A DNA stretch of 64,000 nucleotides, taken from assembly GCA_030694975.1 (NCBI GenBank), contig JAUYTU010000010.1:62001-126000 (forward strand). The letters run 5' to 3'. Source of the stretch: Erysipelotrichaceae bacterium (GTDB lineage Bacteria > Bacillota_I > Bacilli_A > Erysipelotrichales > Erysipelotrichaceae). Below the pieces are notes generated by a model. The model saw only the letters and a program-made list of their open reading frames with translations, was not told the DNA's origin and made no database searches. Made by a program: the position numbers and the translations under genes. Below are positions 19,155 to 27,748 of the stretch, piece by piece (position 1 is the first letter of the stretch; every line of letters begins with the position of its first letter).

Positions 19155-20135
19155 ATGCTCGATACGATAAAGAAACACTGGTTCATCGTTTTGGTCGGTG
19201 TTTTGTTTGTGGCAGCAACCATTTATTTCGCCTATGATATGACGAAAGGTTTCTTGCCAGGTAAAAATGTTAGCGGAAAAGATGTAGTCTTTGAAATTAA
19301 CGGACAAAATGTAACTGCAGATGATTTATATGAGCGTTTATATGATGATTTAGGGAATTCAGCTTTGTATACCCTTTTCGAAAGAGCGGTCGTCGCTCAA
19401 TCGTTTACGGCGGATAAAGATATGATTTCTCAAGCTAAAATTCAAGCGGAATCAACGATTGAGAACTTTAAGAGTTATTACGGTGAAACTGCTTACGAAG
19501 CAATCTTGCTTCAGGCGGTCAGAGGTGTCGGTTATACTTCAGTCGATGAATTAGATGAGTATTTCTTACATTTAAAAATGGTTGAAGCGATGACAAAGAC
19601 TTATTTCGATACCAATATGGATGAATACCTGCCGGAATTCGTAACTGCGAAGAAACCGCGTATTGCACGTCATATTTTGGTAAAGATGGATGATCCTTCC
19701 AAGCCTACGCAAGTAGAGCAAACCCGTTGGGACGAAGTTAAGAATGCTTTGGCTGGCGGGGAATCTTTTGAAGATGTTGCCAAGCGTTTATCGGATGACA
19801 CAGCCTCTCAACCGGGTAGCGGTTCGTTGGGTTATGTTGATTCGGATACACAGTTTGTTCCTGAATTCTTAGCAGCGACGTTGGCGTTGGATAGCGGTGA
19901 AACGAGTACATGGGTTAAAACGACCTATGGCTTTCATTTGATTCGCGTTGACTCGACCGATCTTGCTGAGTTGAAAAAAGAAGACGGTTTCTATGCTGCT
20001 TTGAGCAGTTATTATCCAAAAGCTGTTTTTGAAATGATTTGGGAAAAAGCAGGCACATTAAATATCGATTTTAAGGGTAATGATGATATCAAAGCTCGTT
20101 TAATTAACTTTATGGGCATTGAGGAGGCTGAATAA
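19155..20135 (+). CDS. Membrane-anchored PpiC-type peptidyl-prolyl isomerase
   Basis: 326 residues. An N-terminal membrane anchor lies at about residues 10-28, with no lipobox. The parvulin domain is at about 170-275 and includes the A-R-H-I-L-V core, G-E-S-F-E-D-V-A, the G-S-L-G-Y strand and the Y-G-F-H-L-I-R-V end. N- and C-terminal helical segments would form the chaperone part as in PrsA and SurA. It should act outside the membrane on secreted proteins. It has a clear promoter and RBS and is followed by a second foldase gene one base after its stop. Confidence 0.87.
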   Translation: MLDTIKKHWFIVLVGVLFVAATIYFAYDMTKGFLPGKNVSGKDVVFEINGQNVTADDLYERLYDDLGNSALYTLFERAVVAQSFTADKDMISQAKIQAESTIENFKSYYGETAYEAILLQAVRGVGYTSVDELDEYFLHLKMVEAMTKTYFDTNMDEYLPEFVTAKKPRIARHILVKMDDPSKPTQVEQTRWDEVKNALAGGESFEDVAKRLSDDTASQPGSGSLGYVDSDTQFVPEFLAATLALDSGETSTWVKTTYGFHLIRVDSTDLAELKKEDGFYAALSSYYPKAVFEMIWEKAGTLNIDFKGNDDIKARLINFMGIEEAE

Positions 20136-20136
20136 C

Positions 20137-20994
20137 ATGAAAAAAATTCTGATTATCGGCGTTCTGGCGCTGGCATTGGCTGGTTGCGGTGATGCTTATG
20201 CAAAAATTTCGGATGCGAATGGCGCGATTGTTTCAATTGGTAACAAATCCGTTACGCGCGGGCAGTTATTTGGTTTAATGATGAATCAAGATCCGGCTTC
20301 GACTGTCATCACGATGGCTAAACAAGTCATCATGGATGAAAAAGTTGAAATTAACGATGCGATCCGTGCGAAAGCGGCGGAGAGTCTTGTGGAAATCAAG
20401 GAGAGTTTCGGTGAAGAATTTGCGGATTATATTAAGCGTTTCGGTTATAAAGATGAGGCGGATTATGTTGAAAAGGCGTTGATTCCTTTTGCTCAGCAGG
20501 AAGCCTTGGTTAAGGAATACGTAGAAGAAAATTTCGAATCCTTGGCAACAACTTATTTCCCACGTAAAATCCGTGTGATTCAAATCAAGACGGAAGAAGA
20601 TGCAAAAGCAGCCATTAATGAAGTTAAGAATGGCGGCAATTTCGAAACAGTGGCTACGAAGTATTCATCCGCTACAGCGTATAAAGGTGAGTTGAAACTG
20701 ATCCACTTGGAATCTGGTTATCCGGAAGTCATTACGACGTTCTTAAAGACTGCTTTACAACCGACGTTGACGGCTGAGCCGCTCAAAGATGCGACAACCA
20801 GTTTGTTCTATGTCGTTCAAGTCGTTGAATCTCAACCGACGCGTTATAAAGAAGAAGCGATTGAAGAACTTGTCGGCTTAAGCAGTATTGCTGAAAAAAT
20901 GTTTGTTGAACTGTTTGAAGAAGGCGGATTCAAAGTTTATGATAAGATCATCTTCGACATCCTAACCTCGGATTACAGCCAATATTTACCATAA
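20137..20994 (+). CDS. PrsA-like foldase lipoprotein
   Basis: 285 residues. Signal peptide and lipobox (L-A-L-A-G-C, lipidated Cys at residue 16) show it is a membrane-anchored lipoprotein. A parvulin-like region lies at about 135-225 (P-R-K-I-R-V-I-Q-I to Y-V-V-Q-V-V) but is weaker than in the upstream protein, and the rotamase site is degenerate; it may be mainly a chaperone. GAGGAGG lies 9 bases before the ATG, inside the end of the first gene. The two paralogues probably arose by duplication and form one transcript. Confidence 0.83.
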   Translation: MKKILIIGVLALALAGCGDAYAKISDANGAIVSIGNKSVTRGQLFGLMMNQDPASTVITMAKQVIMDEKVEINDAIRAKAAESLVEIKESFGEEFADYIKRFGYKDEADYVEKALIPFAQQEALVKEYVEENFESLATTYFPRKIRVIQIKTEEDAKAAINEVKNGGNFETVATKYSSATAYKGELKLIHLESGYPEVITTFLKTALQPTLTAEPLKDATTSLFYVVQVVESQPTRYKEEAIEELVGLSSIAEKMFVELFEEGGFKVYDKIIFDILTSDYSQYLP

Positions 20995-21024: not shown

Positions 21025-23211
21025 TTATTTTTCTTCGTTGTCAACACAGATTTTGTCGCGGCCGGTATTCTTTGCCCGATACAGAGCATCATCGGCTTTT
21101 TTTACCAAATCAAGCGAAGAGGTAAATTGGCCGGCATATCCCGAGGCAATGCCAATGGACAGTGTGACCTTGCGTTGGCTGCGTTGGGGAATCAACCCCA
21201 CATCCGAATCTGAGATCGCTTGTCGGATTTTCATTGCGATAAGTTTTGCTCCGTAAAGATTGGTATCATTAAGTATAATCGCAAACTCATCCCCACCAAA
21301 GCGGGCGACCAAGTCGGTCGAACGATTAACACACGATTGAATGATGTTCGCAAAATGCCGTACAATCTCATCACCCGTTAAATGTCCGTAGTAGTCATTG
21401 ATCAGTTTAAAGTGGTCGACATCAATCATCAGCATCGATATGGGTACCCCGCTGCGGCGGGCATTTTCAAATATCAACGTCAGATATTCATCAAAGTGTC
21501 GGCGGTTCGCCAGTCCGGTCATCGGATCTTGTTTGGATAAATTGGTCAACTCGATGTTAAGCTCATGTAGTTTCATCTGTGCTTTCATACGTTTATTGAT
21601 TTCTTCTTTGAGTTCCATCGCCTGATTGATATTGATGAGTGATATGGATAAATAAGAGGCTAATGTTTCGAGTGTTTTAAGTGATTGGGTAGAGAAGACA
21701 TTGGGTGTGCGACTTTGAACGGATATAACGCCCAGGGTTTTGTCTTCCCAATATAATGGCGCAAACATGATGGCTTCCATGGGTTGGCCATAGGATGATC
21801 GGATTTCTGAGACGATGTCGCTGGTATCTTCCTGACGCGAATTTACGAGCAGACTTTTACGGTTTTTGAAACTCCACACCGCAAAACTGGCGGTTGAACT
21901 CAATAAGATTGAACGACCGGTAATTCTTTCGTTATCTTCCATAATAAACCGATAATCAATGGTTTGCGACTCCGCATTATAAATTCCGATGTTAAAGACG
22001 TTCATATTAATCAGTGTTCGAATTTCATTATATATCAATTGGTAAATGAATTCCAAATCTGTGGATGAGGTGAGTTGTCTGCCGATTTCACTGATAAACT
22101 CCAACGAGTGATACGCAGCGGTCAGTTCACTGGCTTTTCGTTCCAACTGATCATTCAATAAGCGATACGTTTCTTTTTGTTGAAAGGATGTCATCGCTTC
22201 CAATTGCACCTGTAATCCGCGTAAATTCAGTTTTCGGGCATTCTCTTCAATTTCCTCATCAACCGCAAATTTTCGTTTTGCATAGTCCAATGCCTGCGGG
22301 TGATTACCGGTTTGTTCAAACAATCGGACAAACAACGGATAGATACTGGCTTGTAACGGCAATGAACCTATTTCCTGGGCAATTTCCAGTGAGCTTAACA
22401 GCGCTTGCTGAGCCAACTCATACTCTTTTTTGTCTAAGTGAATATTAAAGAATTCCACATAGGCCTCAGCAATGTGATACATCTCGTTGGTTTCACGGTA
22501 TATCTCAATACTACGGTTCAGATAATCTGTAGCATCCGCGTAATTTCCCTTCATTCTGGAAATCGAACTAAGGTGCTTTAATGATACAGATTTCATCATC
22601 AAATCATTGTTTTCCTTTGCGATTCTATTGCCATACATCAAAAGTTCAAAAGCTTGGTCCAACTCATTCTTCTTCAGATGAATCGTCGCAATATTGACAA
22701 TTTGCGTAGCACGCAGTCGATGATTACCGAAATTATCCAGACTTTCCTGATAGTATTTCAAAGCCTGATCATAATCGCCCAGTTCGTTGTATATTTCTCC
22801 GATGTTGTTCAGTATTTTAGCGATAAGAATTCTGTCCTCAAGATTTTTGGCTGTAATCAATGCTTGTTGATAGTAGGAAAACGAAAGATCGTAAACGTGC
22901 ATGTATACATGGGATGTACCCAAGGCATTGAGAATTTCTGCTTCTAGAATCAAATCCCCAAGAACCTTTACATGCTCAAATGAATCAAGTAAGACCCGGT
23001 TGGCTTCTTCCATGTTGCCCAGTCGCATGTGTGCTTTACCAATCAGAAATTGGCTGTGCAGCATCAGTCGTTGATAGCCATGTTTTTGTGAAAGTTGATG
23101 GGCCATTTGAGCATGTTCCAACATATCCTTTACAGATGTTCGCTCAAAAGACTCGGCTTGCCGAATGTGTTCAAAAATGTCGCGTTCGCTGACTATCTTA
23201 TTTTTTTCCAC
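21025..23211 (-). CDS. TPR-GAF-GGDEF diguanylate cyclase
   Basis: 728 residues. The first about 330 residues are tetratricopeptide repeats (motifs such as A-K-I-L-N-N-I-G-E-I-Y-N-E-L-G-D-Y-D-Q-A-L-K-Y-Y). A GAF-like domain follows at about 370-530, then GGDEF at about 560-728 with an intact G-G-D-E-F active site. The product-inhibition I-site R-S-T-D lies exactly five residues before it. It should make cyclic di-GMP in the cytosol under control of the GAF ligand and TPR partners. GTG at 23211 is chosen as start because GGAGGT lies 7 bases upstream; a longer frame runs across the divergent HIT gene. Confidence 0.9.
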   Translation of the reverse strand: MEKNKIVSERDIFEHIRQAESFERTSVKDMLEHAQMAHQLSQKHGYQRLMLHSQFLIGKAHMRLGNMEEANRVLLDSFEHVKVLGDLILEAEILNALGTSHVYMHVYDLSFSYYQQALITAKNLEDRILIAKILNNIGEIYNELGDYDQALKYYQESLDNFGNHRLRATQIVNIATIHLKKNELDQAFELLMYGNRIAKENNDLMMKSVSLKHLSSISRMKGNYADATDYLNRSIEIYRETNEMYHIAEAYVEFFNIHLDKKEYELAQQALLSSLEIAQEIGSLPLQASIYPLFVRLFEQTGNHPQALDYAKRKFAVDEEIEENARKLNLRGLQVQLEAMTSFQQKETYRLLNDQLERKASELTAAYHSLEFISEIGRQLTSSTDLEFIYQLIYNEIRTLINMNVFNIGIYNAESQTIDYRFIMEDNERITGRSILLSSTASFAVWSFKNRKSLLVNSRQEDTSDIVSEIRSSYGQPMEAIMFAPLYWEDKTLGVISVQSRTPNVFSTQSLKTLETLASYLSISLININQAMELKEEINKRMKAQMKLHELNIELTNLSKQDPMTGLANRRHFDEYLTLIFENARRSGVPISMLMIDVDHFKLINDYYGHLTGDEIVRHFANIIQSCVNRSTDLVARFGGDEFAIILNDTNLYGAKLIAMKIRQAISDSDVGLIPQRSQRKVTLSIGIASGYAGQFTSSLDLVKKADDALYRAKNTGRDKICVDNEEK

Positions 23212-23323
23212 GTTCTTACCTCCACATTCATGTTTTATATATTGTAACTTAATTCGCTGAAAAAAATAAGCACATTTCGAATTTTTTACGATTGTGTTAG
23301 AATATCCTAAAGGAGGACTCACT

Positions 23324-23719
23324 ATGTGTATCTTTTGTAAAATTATAAATAAGGAAATACCTGCTTCCATTATATATGAAGATGAGGATGTTTGTGCCAT
23401 CCTTGATGTTGCCCAAGTAACCGAGGGTCATACATTGGTCATGCCGAAGGATCATTTTGAGAGTATACTTGATTGTCCACCCGTTTTGTTAAGCAAGATA
23501 ATCTCAGTCACGCAGATGTTAAGTAAAGACATTGTCAGTAAACTGAATGCGAAGGGAGTCAATGTATTGACCAATGCAAAGGAAGCCGCCGGACAGTCGG
23601 TGATGCATTTCCATATACACATCATCCCTCGGTACACAGAAGATGATGGATTGATCTTGAAATTTCGAGGTAATCCAACACCGGATGTCGCAAAAATTGA
23701 AAAAATCTTAAAAAAATAA
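23324..23719 (+). CDS. HIT family nucleotide hydrolase
   Basis: 131 residues. The histidine triad H-F-H-I-H-I-I-P-R is present at about residue 95, and the N-terminal C-I-F-C-K-I zinc-type motif. Members (HinT/Fhit-like) hydrolyse adenosine phosphoramidates or dinucleoside polyphosphates. AGGAGG lies 7 bases before the ATG at 23324; an in-frame ATG 30 bases upstream has no site. A TAGAAT -10 at 23298-23303 is plausible. Divergent from the GGDEF gene. Confidence 0.92.
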   Translation: MCIFCKIINKEIPASIIYEDEDVCAILDVAQVTEGHTLVMPKDHFESILDCPPVLLSKIISVTQMLSKDIVSKLNAKGVNVLTNAKEAAGQSVMHFHIHIIPRYTEDDGLILKFRGNPTPDVAKIEKILKK

Positions 23720-23769: not shown

Positions 23770-23795
23770 AAAAAGGGAAATTTCCCTTTTTCATT
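23770..23795 (-). terminator. Terminator after yhaM
   Basis: Perfect palindrome AAAAAGGGAAATTTCCCTTTTT overlapping the end of yhaM, with T-runs on both strands, so it may also stop the convergent HIT transcript. Confidence 0.75.
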
Positions 23796-24726
23796 TTGTA
23801 CGATAGAAACTGCGGTTTTCCAATGAGAATATACGTCCGGAGAATTGACCGACATCGGTAATTTCGAACATTTTCTCAAACATATTTAAGCGGGCATCCA
23901 GATTATCGATCAGATGCAGAACTTCAGCTTCCGCAACCATGGGTAATACCGGCGAGCCATATTCATATTGGCCATGATGAGATAAAATCATATGTCTAAG
24001 ACAAGTGATTTGTTCACTGTCTTGCCAGTTTTTGGTTAAAGCCAATTCGTACACAATGGATTGCATCATGGAGATATGTCCCAATAATTTGCCTTGCATG
24101 GTGTACTCCGTCAATACCGGACCGGACAGTTCGATGATTTTACCCAAATCATGTGTCAATATCCCGGCAATGAGTAAGTCACGATTTAAAATTTCATAAC
24201 GTTTGCAAACTTCATCGGCTAAATCGATCATCGCGACCACATGGGTAGCCAATCCACCCAAGAAATCATGATGATTTTTTGATGCGGCCGGATACTCATA
24301 AAACTCTTTTTCATAGCGCTCGATACACATTTTGGAAATACCGTAATAGATTTCATCTTGAATCGAATGAATCGCCGCATCAATTTTCCCTTTTAAATAT
24401 TCTTTGGGATATTTTGATACATTGACAAAAGCGGTCGCATCGAAATCACCGTTGACCGGTAAAACGTTGTGAATTCGAAGTTGAAGAGAATTACGGTATT
24501 TTAATACTTCTCCGACGATCGTTACGATCTTACCCGGTTCAGCCAGGGCGGCCTGCTCTTCCTTAACATCCCACAATTTGCCTTCCATGCTTCCGGTCTT
24601 ATCTTGTACCACCAATGACATATACGGTGCTCCGGCAGTCGTTACACCGCGTGTCGATTGGGTGATTAACAACGGTTGATTGATTTTTTCGGCTTCTGCC
24701 CAACTAATTATTGTCTTTTGATTCAT
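23791..24726 (-). CDS. yhaM: 3'-5' exoribonuclease YhaM
   Basis: 311 residues, the size of B. subtilis YhaM. An OB-fold at about 10-95 is followed by an HD domain whose metal motif is seen as H-H-D-F-L-G-G-L-A-T-H and I-L-T-H-D-L-G-K. Known members trim 3' ends of RNA and single-stranded DNA with Mn2+ or Co2+. The start at 24726 has GGAGC upstream and overlaps the end of the glycosyltransferase-RecX gene by 23 bases. It is therefore probably the third gene of that operon. Confidence 0.92.
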   Translation of the reverse strand: MNQKTIISWAEAEKINQPLLITQSTRGVTTAGAPYMSLVVQDKTGSMEGKLWDVKEEQAALAEPGKIVTIVGEVLKYRNSLQLRIHNVLPVNGDFDATAFVNVSKYPKEYLKGKIDAAIHSIQDEIYYGISKMCIERYEKEFYEYPAASKNHHDFLGGLATHVVAMIDLADEVCKRYEILNRDLLIAGILTHDLGKIIELSGPVLTEYTMQGKLLGHISMMQSIVYELALTKNWQDSEQITCLRHMILSHHGQYEYGSPVLPMVAEAEVLHLIDNLDARLNMFEKMFEITDVGQFSGRIFSLENRSFYRTK

Positions 24727-26707
24727 TTTCAAGCTCCATTTCTTCCACGACTTCATTGATATCGCTAAACTTAAATCCCTGAGTGGCTAAGGCCTTTTTG
24801 ATGGCCAAGCGTAATTCTTTCTGATCGGTAAACCTTCGTCTTAAACGGTTGGCGGCTTTTAATGCGGCCTTAAACAAATTTTGCTTCTCAACCACGATTT
24901 CATTTTCAAAGCTTAAAAAGGTCATGGCTTGCTCAGCTGTTGACGAGTCATATCCCTGAGTTAACAGTTTCTGACGTATTTTTTGTTTCTTGGCGATCAA
25001 CGAACGGCCTTTGATGGACGGTTGAATCTTTTCTGCCCAACGGATGGCCAGATTCAGTTCACTTTCTTCTGAATCCGACATGAAAGATTCTTCGATCAAC
25101 GCTTCATCGATTCCCTTTTCTTTCAGGGTTTTGATAATGCGTTTTTTCCCGATCAACAGTGATCGCAGATTTAAAACCATGGCATGCGTATAGCGCAAAT
25201 CATCGATATAGCCGCGTTGACGCAGATGATCGATAACCGCATGGATTTGAACGATCGTACAATCGGTATTTTCATTCAGGAAATCGAAGATTTCTTTTTC
25301 TGTACGATCTTTGACCGCTAGTTTGCGAATGGCTGCCTGATAGGCCTTGGCTACTTTTTCGTTGTCACGATAATCATCCCATGTTTTCTCTGATACCATT
25401 TTGCCCTTCACCAACTCTCTTGCCAAACAGACATCACTCAGCATCGTAACGGTAAACTTGTCGGTGCGGTTGCTGGCACTGATTTCTGCAATTTCATCTT
25501 TTATCATAACACTTTCAATGCGATATGTATTGGTATATCGATCGATTGCGGTTTGATAAACGGTGGAGATGGCTTTTGAAAAACTGCGCATATCATAAAC
25601 TTCTACCTGTTGGCGGGCGTCCAATCGCATTTGGATGCGTTTTATTTCTTCGACCATCAGCCATTCTTCAACTCGTTGCGCAAATTCTTGGGGTGAGCGG
25701 AAGAAGTAGCCGGTCTTACCCTCTTCAATTAAGCCAATCAGCACATCGTCCGGTCGGGCAAACACCGGTAACTGTGAGGCTAGGGCTTCGATGTAGGTCA
25801 TGCCTTGGGTTTCGGTTAAGGACGCAGATACAAAAGCATCGCTTGCATGATAAAAGGCCGGGACTTGTTCGGCTGGTTTTTTACCGACAAAAACGACCGT
25901 ATCCTGAAGTTTCAAAAATTTGACTTTCTCAAGGAGTGACTCTGTTTCCGGGCCCCCGCCCACAATCAGAAATTTCACCGGCAAATCCTTCTCTTTAATA
26001 TATCTGAATCCATCGATTACAAAATCGATGCTCTTTTCTTTGGCTATACGACCGACAAATAAAATGATCTTCTCATTTTCTTTGACTTGAGCCATCGCCC
26101 GGATTTCATTGATTCTGTCATCGTTACTTAAATGTCGGTCGAACCGTTCTAAATCAAGTCCGGTCGGTACGATGAAAATCGGACGTTGTATGTTATAGCG
26201 TAAGAGCATATCTTTGGTTTTCTGTGATGGAGCGATGATTGCTTCACAGGAAGCCCCATACAAACGACTGATTCGTTCGATGGTTTTTTTGGCGAATACA
26301 TCGACCATCTTCGAATTAAATATATTGACGTAATGAGTGTAGTCTTCGTATGTTGTATGGTAGGTCGATACGATTGGAAGTTTTAACATCTTACCGCAAA
26401 AATGTCCGAAGATTCCTGCCCCAAATTCGGTGTGGACGTGAATGATGTCGAGATTCATTTCTCTGACGATGTTATACGCTTTAAAATGCAAAGGTGCTGT
26501 CGCTACGTAGCCGTACATCTTTTTGATTTCAATGCCGGGCAAACGTAAAATACGGTCTTCAAAAGAAGTACTGATCAGCGATGGATGTGTCGTGATGACA
26601 AAAACATCGTGACCGTCATTTTCCAAGGCGCGTTTTAGCGTTACGATGGACGTCACGACTCCGTTGATGTCCGGTAGATAGGAATCAGCAAACATTCCGA
26701 TGCGCAT
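24704..26707 (-). CDS. Glycosyltransferase (GT4) fused to a RecX-like domain
   Basis: 667 residues in one open frame. Residues about 1-385 are a GT-B glycosyltransferase of family 4, like the 1,2-diacylglycerol 3-glucosyltransferases: ADSYLPDINGVVTS at the N-terminus, GAGIFGHF, and the E-x7-E motif region near SLTETQGMTYIEALAS. Residues about 460-660 are RecX-like three-helix repeats (V-K-D-R-T-E-K-E-I-F-D-F-L, LRQRGYIDDLRYT, GKKRIIKTLKEKGID). The junction lies around 390-450 and no stop or start interrupts it. RecX inhibits RecA, whereas GT4 makes membrane glycolipid; the two have no known link. The RBS is GGAGG just before the ATG. Confidence 0.88.
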   Translation of the reverse strand: MRIGMFADSYLPDINGVVTSIVTLKRALENDGHDVFVITTHPSLISTSFEDRILRLPGIEIKKMYGYVATAPLHFKAYNIVREMNLDIIHVHTEFGAGIFGHFCGKMLKLPIVSTYHTTYEDYTHYVNIFNSKMVDVFAKKTIERISRLYGASCEAIIAPSQKTKDMLLRYNIQRPIFIVPTGLDLERFDRHLSNDDRINEIRAMAQVKENEKIILFVGRIAKEKSIDFVIDGFRYIKEKDLPVKFLIVGGGPETESLLEKVKFLKLQDTVVFVGKKPAEQVPAFYHASDAFVSASLTETQGMTYIEALASQLPVFARPDDVLIGLIEEGKTGYFFRSPQEFAQRVEEWLMVEEIKRIQMRLDARQQVEVYDMRSFSKAISTVYQTAIDRYTNTYRIESVMIKDEIAEISASNRTDKFTVTMLSDVCLARELVKGKMVSEKTWDDYRDNEKVAKAYQAAIRKLAVKDRTEKEIFDFLNENTDCTIVQIHAVIDHLRQRGYIDDLRYTHAMVLNLRSLLIGKKRIIKTLKEKGIDEALIEESFMSDSEESELNLAIRWAEKIQPSIKGRSLIAKKQKIRQKLLTQGYDSSTAEQAMTFLSFENEIVVEKQNLFKAALKAANRLRRRFTDQKELRLAIKKALATQGFKFSDINEVVEEMELENESKDNN

Positions 26708-26719
26708 AAGTAAGTCCTC

Positions 26720-27748
26720 CTATTTATTGCGATGGATAAACTTGAATAATACAAACACGATACCGCCGATAGTCATGATCAGATAGAAGTTGCTCAATCG
26801 CCAGATAATCATGGTGGCGGAGGCATTGATATAGCCGACGACCGTTGTAAACATTAAGATAAAGGTAGCTTCGGTTCCGCCGCTGGCACCGGGGACTGGA
26901 ATAAACGCATTGATCATAGCCACAAATGCGGATAGTGCCATAACATCAATCCAAGAATAGCCATCGAGCAGTGAAATCCCCAAGGACTTCATTGCCACCA
27001 AAGGTAAGAAGTAATAGAACATCAAACGGATGATATTTAAACAGACGACTTTACAAATCAACAGTTTGTGGGTCGGAATTTTCGCTTGTTCTACTTGAAA
27101 GCGATCGATCTGTTTTTCCATAAAAGCAATCGCTTTTTCTTTGTTTTTAATCATTCGCATCTTAATGCCGATTTCGATACCACGGGTGGATACCCAGTGG
27201 TGAAAGCGGGGCAGTCGAGCCAAGGACCACAATCCGAAGATGATGGATGCGTTGATGATAAATCCCACAACGACAAAAATGAAAAATGGGGAATGTCGGC
27301 CGAAAAAGTGACGAAAGCGAAACAGCATCAGAATAAACACAGTGACTACCATGGTGCTTTGATAGATAATGAAGTCCAGCCATAACACACTGGCCGAATC
27401 GCTAAGAGCTACTTTTTGTTTGTTAAAGACATATACTTGTGCAAACTGTCCGCCCGAGGCACTGGGGGTAATTCCGTGGAAAAACGCTGCGATGAAGGCA
27501 TTGACGATTCCCTGACGATATTTATAGTGCGGATTGGACATGCGTGTAAGTTGAGTCAGGATAATACCGATAAGCACATGGTAGAATAAGGCCATCAGTA
27601 TAACGACCATCAGCCAACCTAGCTGAATGGATTGTAAAGAAAGTAAAATTTCATCCACAAAATCGCGAATGGTCAGGTAAAGTGCTGTTACTGTAAATAT
27701 CAGAATTAGCAATATATTGAAAGCGTAGCTTTTAAAGATTTTGTCCAT
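26720..27748 (-). CDS. LPG synthase-type / YbhN-like membrane protein (flippase-like)
   Basis: 342 residues with about eight membrane helices. It matches the UPF0104 (AglD/MprF membrane part) family, with the G-x-T-P-S-A-S-G-G-Q segment in the middle and P-V-P-G-A-S-G-G-T-E near residue 285. This family is linked to lipid or glycolipid transfer across the membrane. The neighbour is a glucosyl-diacylglycerol-type glycosyltransferase 12 bases downstream, so a role in moving the glycolipid is a fair inference. GAGGA precedes the ATG; promoter and dyad lie immediately upstream. Confidence 0.83.
   Translation of the reverse strand: MDKIFKSYAFNILLILIFTVTALYLTIRDFVDEILLSLQSIQLGWLMVVILMALFYHVLIGIILTQLTRMSNPHYKYRQGIVNAFIAAFFHGITPSASGGQFAQVYVFNKQKVALSDSASVLWLDFIIYQSTMVVTVFILMLFRFRHFFGRHSPFFIFVVVGFIINASIIFGLWSLARLPRFHHWVSTRGIEIGIKMRMIKNKEKAIAFMEKQIDRFQVEQAKIPTHKLLICKVVCLNIIRLMFYYFLPLVAMKSLGISLLDGYSWIDVMALSAFVAMINAFIPVPGASGGTEATFILMFTTVVGYINASATMIIWRLSNFYLIMTIGGIVFVLFKFIHRNK

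Follow-up and report, generated by a model that had tools for sequence, protein, structure and literature searches.

A GT4 glycosyltransferase fused to a complete RecX in Erysipelotrichales

RecX, a regulator of RecA, has been studied in detail as a free protein. In the window (the whole 64,000-nucleotide stretch of Erysipelotrichaceae DNA analysed here), it occurs instead as the end of a protein that begins as a lipid-type glycosyltransferase (GT), which raises the questions of whether the attached part is still a RecX, whether the two halves are made and act as one protein, and what a regulator of RecA might do on such an enzyme. The sequence-only reading that drew attention to this gene gave no strand for it. 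It is the minus strand that carries an open frame of 667 residues at 24704–26707, and the plus strand has many stops there. The features discussed below are, in window coordinates:

24704–26707, minus strand: fused gene, GT4 glycosyltransferase plus complete RecX, 667 aa, one open frame (Pfam, NCBIfam; intact in relatives)
25532–26707, minus strand: GT4 glycosyltransferase part, residues 1–392, GT-B fold (Pfam, NCBIfam, invariant residues, Foldseek)
25481–25558, minus strand: junction, residues 384–409, GT helix 373–392 followed by RecX strand 394–403 (AlphaFold secondary structure)
24707–25528, minus strand: RecX part, residues 394–667, beta domain 394–439, repeats and C-terminal helices (Pfam, NCBIfam, AlphaFold)
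Within the fused protein: RecX repeats RecX_HTH1 (455–477), HTH2 (502–540) and HTH3 (548–595), and extra C-terminal helices (601–666)
23791–24756, minus strand: yhaM-type gene, OB fold and HD domain, directly downstream and overlapping the 3' end of the fused gene
26720–27748, minus strand: flippase-like/LPG_synthase_TM membrane protein, 342 aa, 12 bp upstream of the fused gene

The two halves and their neighbours

The description of the gene as a GT4 lipid-type glycosyltransferase fused to RecX was borne out by Pfam, NCBIfam and AlphaFold/Foldseek. In the GT half, Glycos_transf_1 (PF00534, E 1.7e-32) and Glyco_transf_4 (PF13439, E 3.2e-30) both score above their cut-offs, the two GT-B halves and an E-X7-E motif (E299-X7-E307) are present, and E299, G302, E307, R220 and K225 do not vary among 45 sequences. 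Foldseek with the model of the whole protein returned GT4 enzymes, such as MshA and BshA, as best matches. This part looks like an active GT4 enzyme, and its substrate would be that of the diacylglycerol glucosyltransferase type. The closest NCBIfam model for residues 1–390 is alpha-monoglucosyldiacylglycerol synthase (alMGS, NF049988), and since the score of 294 bits is below the equivalog cut-off of 400, the half is labelled alMGS-like and not alMGS; none of the models specific to a lipid GT is matched above its cut-off. The protein resembles Acholeplasma alMGS in this best match, in its E-X7-E motif and in its upstream genes, of which one is flippase-like and another frequently encodes a further GT of lipid type, but differs from it in its lower score and in carrying RecX. 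A lipid product is thus likely from kinship and context, rather than established. alMGS binds the membrane peripherally (PMC6506492), and by analogy the GT half probably does so too. The alMGS trait of a basic N-half and an acidic C-half was compared with the corresponding pI values in this protein, 7.8 and 5.2 (medians of 90 relatives 7.1 and 4.9), and a scan for amphipathic helices picked out stretches at 140–157 in the GT and, of basic character, at 609–628 at the RecX end.

RecX-like repeats had been read from about residue 440; the repeats are there, but their extent was underestimated, as a whole RecX including its beta domain starts at residue 394. The domain search of the C-terminal part that had been proposed found all three Pfam repeats above cut-offs (RecX_HTH1, E 6.5e-12; RecX_HTH2, E 1.3e-06; RecX_HTH3, E 1e-05), with scores of 45.7 (PF21982), 29.0 (PF02631) and 26.1 bits (PF21981) against a Pfam cut-off of 26 each. 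It also matched residues 416–658 to positions 25–264 of the 267 in the NCBIfam RecX model NF010733 (E 2.1e-39). The score of 135.8 bits does not reach the curated cut-off of 240, which is non-discriminating here because no RecX of the class reaches it (0 of 302 matching genomes). The best solved relatives by sequence are the RecX entries 3d5l, 3e3v and 3c1d. The AlphaFold model of the RecX part (pLDDT 90.8) gives a TM-score of 0.81–0.84 against 3d5l, normalised to 3d5l, its top six Foldseek matches are all RecX, and the RecX signature residues D467, D503, L528, G532 and G585 are invariant or nearly so. The likeness to Firmicutes RecX of the Bacillus subtilis YfhG type (3d5l, 3e3v), which is 212–272 residues long (PMC3527212), therefore covers the whole length in sequence, the fold and the order of a beta domain, three-helix repeats and a longer C-terminus; the difference is that these are free proteins, whereas here RecX is the C-terminal 40% of a glycosyltransferase.

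Whether the genome has another recX had been raised as a check, and the search for a second one in the genome of the window found none: its single RecX is the one within the fusion, and it has one RecA. Both halves are under strong purifying selection, dN/dS among close relatives being about 0.04–0.07 for RecX and about 0.03–0.04 for the GT, for which several of the comparisons were saturated. Genome annotation from the first domain alone would overlook RecX in these genomes.

The fused gene had also been reported to adjoin yhaM, and a yhaM-type gene does lie directly downstream and overlap it. The encoded protein matches NF010007 over nearly its whole length with E 8.1e-104, its 347 bits falling short of the cut-off of 460, and has both the Pfam HD and OB domains. 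Among the fused and GT-less loci inspected, yhaM adjoins recX wherever the contig reaches that far. On the other side, the 342-aa protein matches PF03706 (E 1.6e-27) and, weakly, the glucosaminyl-PG flippase model NF053789, and its gene holds the same position relative to the fused gene in most relatives. Downstream of yhaM, a predicted frame of 791 aa (21025–23400, minus strand) appears by eye to encode a signalling-like protein of TPR - GAF - GGDEF composition; its long 5' end overlaps a HIT-family gene on the other strand (23294–23719, plus strand), so that translation probably begins further in. Tandem PrsA/foldase-like genes with a 17 bp overlap lie at 19155–20135 and 20119–20994 (plus strand); relatives have counterparts of the first in the vicinity of yhaM and hit.

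The junction and its spread

In the AlphaFold model there is no linker, the GT helix ending at residue 392 and the RecX strand starting at 394, and the segment 384–400 is 17 residues long in 90 of 90 fused sequences. A search for an internal start in residues 381–430 found a Shine-Dalgarno-like site with a start codon in 1 of 90 fused genes; control windows gave 0–3 of 90, whereas the true start has such a site in 48 of 90. Because start signals are no commoner at the junction than in the controls, a separately translated RecX is unlikely, and the want of both an internal start and a spacer suggests a single two-headed protein. These findings bear on the possibility that the halves act separately, a free RecX being released by an internal start or by cleavage and the fusion being spatially meaningless. 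That RecX is free in unfused loci and that fission happened twice (see below) would suit such an arrangement, but the junction is of invariant length, offers no flexible spacer of the kind favoured by a protease and has hardly any start signals, so that we regard it as improbable. The full-length AlphaFold model of the two-headed protein has a pLDDT of 88.6 and a pTM of 0.63, and the lower pTM suggests that the placement of the GT relative to the RecX part is not firmly predicted.

An assembly error at the junction and an absence of the fusion from close relatives had been named as what would overturn the fusion; neither was found. The fusion is intact from residue 1 to about residue 660 in most of 60 genomes in the search for relatives, and the in-frame stops listed in these sit at natural ends, where checked. 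The same fused frame is present in isolates (Dielma fastidiosa JC13, Longicatena caecimuris DSM 29481) and in the complete chromosome of Erysipelothrix inopinata. The named records, from L. caecimuris, D. fastidiosa, E. inopinata, Bulleidia extructa, Holdemanella biformis and Breznakia pachnodae, are the basis on which the fusion is assigned to Erysipelotrichales; those nearest to the fusion of the window are uncultured Firmicutes assemblies, at 86–87% identity. In a survey of the order restricted to genomes at least 90% complete, RecX was present in 203 of 209 genomes. Two genomes listed as 98–99% complete (G021 and G271) had neither RecX nor RecA candidates and were counted as unsearchable, not as losses. 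Conservation across the order, one of the points proposed for checking, is seen in the RecX frames listed, 127 of 150 of which have the fused length of at least 560 aa, the other 23 being shorter. Frame breaks in single genomes, within the GT in G424 and at the junction in locus L122, are the kind of observation that an artefact of assembly or gene calling would produce, but 127 fused frames with the same junction, in complete genomes and cultured strains among others, make this explanation extremely remote. Assembly error was rejected, fused open frames being found in nearly all relatives.

The fusion marks Erysipelotrichales, an order with gut and environmental members, because the RecX frames listed outside the order, in a class-wide search of 394 genomes, stay RecX-sized (244 to 349 aa). 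A phylum-wide search gave matches from the same class alone. GT4 and RecX are known families, and in the open-access literature searched we found no description of their architecture here, of its age or of its unfused counterpart, and no paper dealing with RecX joined to a glycosyltransferase or with recX and ugtP together.

Origin and loss of the fusion

The unfused counterpart is found in a family of the same class, f8, in which the order GT4 - recX - yhaM occurs in at least 23 of 29 recX loci, in most of these with overlapping GT4 and recX frames and with a convergent HIT-family gene behind yhaM. In one such locus examined in detail (L208), the overlapping GT4 and recX genes are in different frames, so that an indel of one or two bases in the overlap could join them without a spacer. 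Fusion by an indel between overlapping operon genes is most likely the origin of the two-headed protein: an ancestral operon of GT4, recX and yhaM would have had overlapping GT4 and recX neighbours in different frames, and a small frame-changing indel within the overlap would have joined them. A spacer-free junction of constant length is what this origin predicts. The change may have been a fusion on the stem of the order or an earlier fusion followed by fission in f8. The latter would be allowed by the RecX tree, in which f8 falls inside the fused set (support 92); the YhaM tree, rooted on f8, cannot decide between the two polarities, and the choice of a fusion from an f8-like state is based on one-change parsimony and taxonomy.

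Within Erysipelotrichales, the GT was lost and recX-yhaM kept at 18 loci, and in 18 of the 18 GT-less loci examined recX is followed directly by yhaM. The YhaM tree requires a minimum of five changes for loss of the GT with retention of RecX, and two for fission into overlapping genes. In genus g3, free RecX was found in ten sampled genomes, nine of which were searched for the GT without finding a close copy. In the opposite direction, G523 has the GT without RecX, and so apparently does G405, but there the GT is at a contig end. The free RecX proteins are strongly divergent from one another, and most of them fall among fused RecX in the RecX tree, which is why they look like remnants and why import by transfer was disfavoured. 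Since RecX has been kept beside yhaM after repeated loss of the GT, it has a selected role of its own, and the two halves are independent. The association of recX with yhaM is steadier than that with the GT, and, given these losses and fissions, the fusion is not indispensable.

Several GT-less or altered loci have features of their own. In four GT-less genomes, a gene for a small phosphatase-like protein of the HAD family (about 190 aa; L142 3724–4293, L144 6194–6760, L145 5927–6487, L179 4376–4948) lies directly upstream of recX, which it touches or overlaps in three of the four. Residual N-terminal extensions of about 75–230 residues are seen in the RecX genes of L146 (4299–5618), L147 (4764–5918), L178 (4352–5722) and L171 (3071–4096). 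Part of the extension in L146 (genome G020) matches the GT (E 2.7e-6) and looks like a decaying GT half. In L177 (3946–5822, one contig of G424), where the frame break lies within the GT part, the RecX part is open; this may be a sequencing error or recent decay, the two being indistinguishable.

The sequence-only reading saw no obvious link between a GT of this kind and RecX, a view that needs amending, as recX lies directly behind two unrelated lipid GT families in several bacterial families. In families f7, f9, f13 and f18, an MGDG-synthase type GT is directly upstream in 13 of 14 recX loci, all outside the order (L152, L153, L157, L189–L193, L195–L197, L199 and L202), and overlaps recX by 8–44 bp in 12 of 14, its type having been checked by Pfam in three loci. 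These pairs are like the fusion in that recX immediately follows a lipid GT gene, but the GT (GT28-like) belongs to a different family from GT4 and no fusion has occurred. The pairing of recX with two lipid GT families may reflect history or function. In other loci surveyed, YitT and PrfB neighbour recX. The neighbourhood of recX in Firmicutes was described as not conserved in a study of B. subtilis RecX (PMC3527212), in comparison with which the present surveys reveal a lineage-specific yet strong conservation of context, including two unrelated lipid GTs upstream.

These patterns also bear on the idea that the RecX part has ceased to act on RecA and now serves the glycosyltransferase as a structural or regulatory tail. 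The RecX part evolves faster than the GT (mean pairwise identity among 90 fused proteins 29% and 48%, respectively), and a role with the GT is imaginable given that RecX genes of other lineages also overlap lipid GT genes. However, the divergence among free RecX indicates that fast change is normal for RecX, the part is the only RecX of its genome, keeps the fold and the signature residues under strong purifying selection, and stands alone beside yhaM after at least five losses of the GT, while G523 has a GT that does without it. We therefore consider such a tail very unlikely, and with it the earlier suggestion that the RecX-like part took another role, which a sole and complete RecX, selected and surviving alone at least five times, makes hard to uphold.

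A possible RecX at the membrane

The reading that we favour, with good though incomplete confidence, is that of a bifunctional two-headed protein with a GT4 end and a RecX end that regulates RecA. The C-terminal RecX would, like RecX in other organisms, bind RecA filaments on single-stranded DNA and limit or remodel them, and the two ends would perform separate jobs and be made 1:1 from one message. If the protein is left uncleaved, as we infer, it would bring RecX to the inner face of the membrane, the GT being probably a peripheral membrane enzyme. Such tethering is plausible but hypothetical, and would fit both a junction that lacks a linker and an internal start and the membrane association known for RecA, which in Escherichia coli forms membrane-associated storage structures and bundles (PMC6363387). 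The repeated loss or splitting of the fusion argues that tethering, if real, is not essential. The glucosyltransferases UgtP and OpgH set a precedent: both are membrane-associated and have a second role as regulators of FtsZ, a polymer of the cytoplasm (PMC3723540). There, however, the enzyme itself is the regulator, whereas here a separate domain known to regulate RecA filaments is attached, and the parallel is a lead only.

A bolder version, which we put forward tentatively and think doubtful, is that RecA control in this order is membrane-bound by design, with a glycolipid synthase holding RecX at the inner membrane, the site at which RecA storage structures and bundles collect in E. coli, so that recombination and the SOS response are tuned to lipid synthesis or to the supply of UDP-sugar. 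If true, the repeated pairing of recX with two unrelated lipid GT families would point to a broader connection of RecX with envelope glycolipids that has gone unrecognised. In any case, with an old, order-wide fusion nature supplies a test of whether RecA can be, or is, regulated at the membrane, for which the GT-less relatives in the order and the unfused operon of f8 are ready-made controls.
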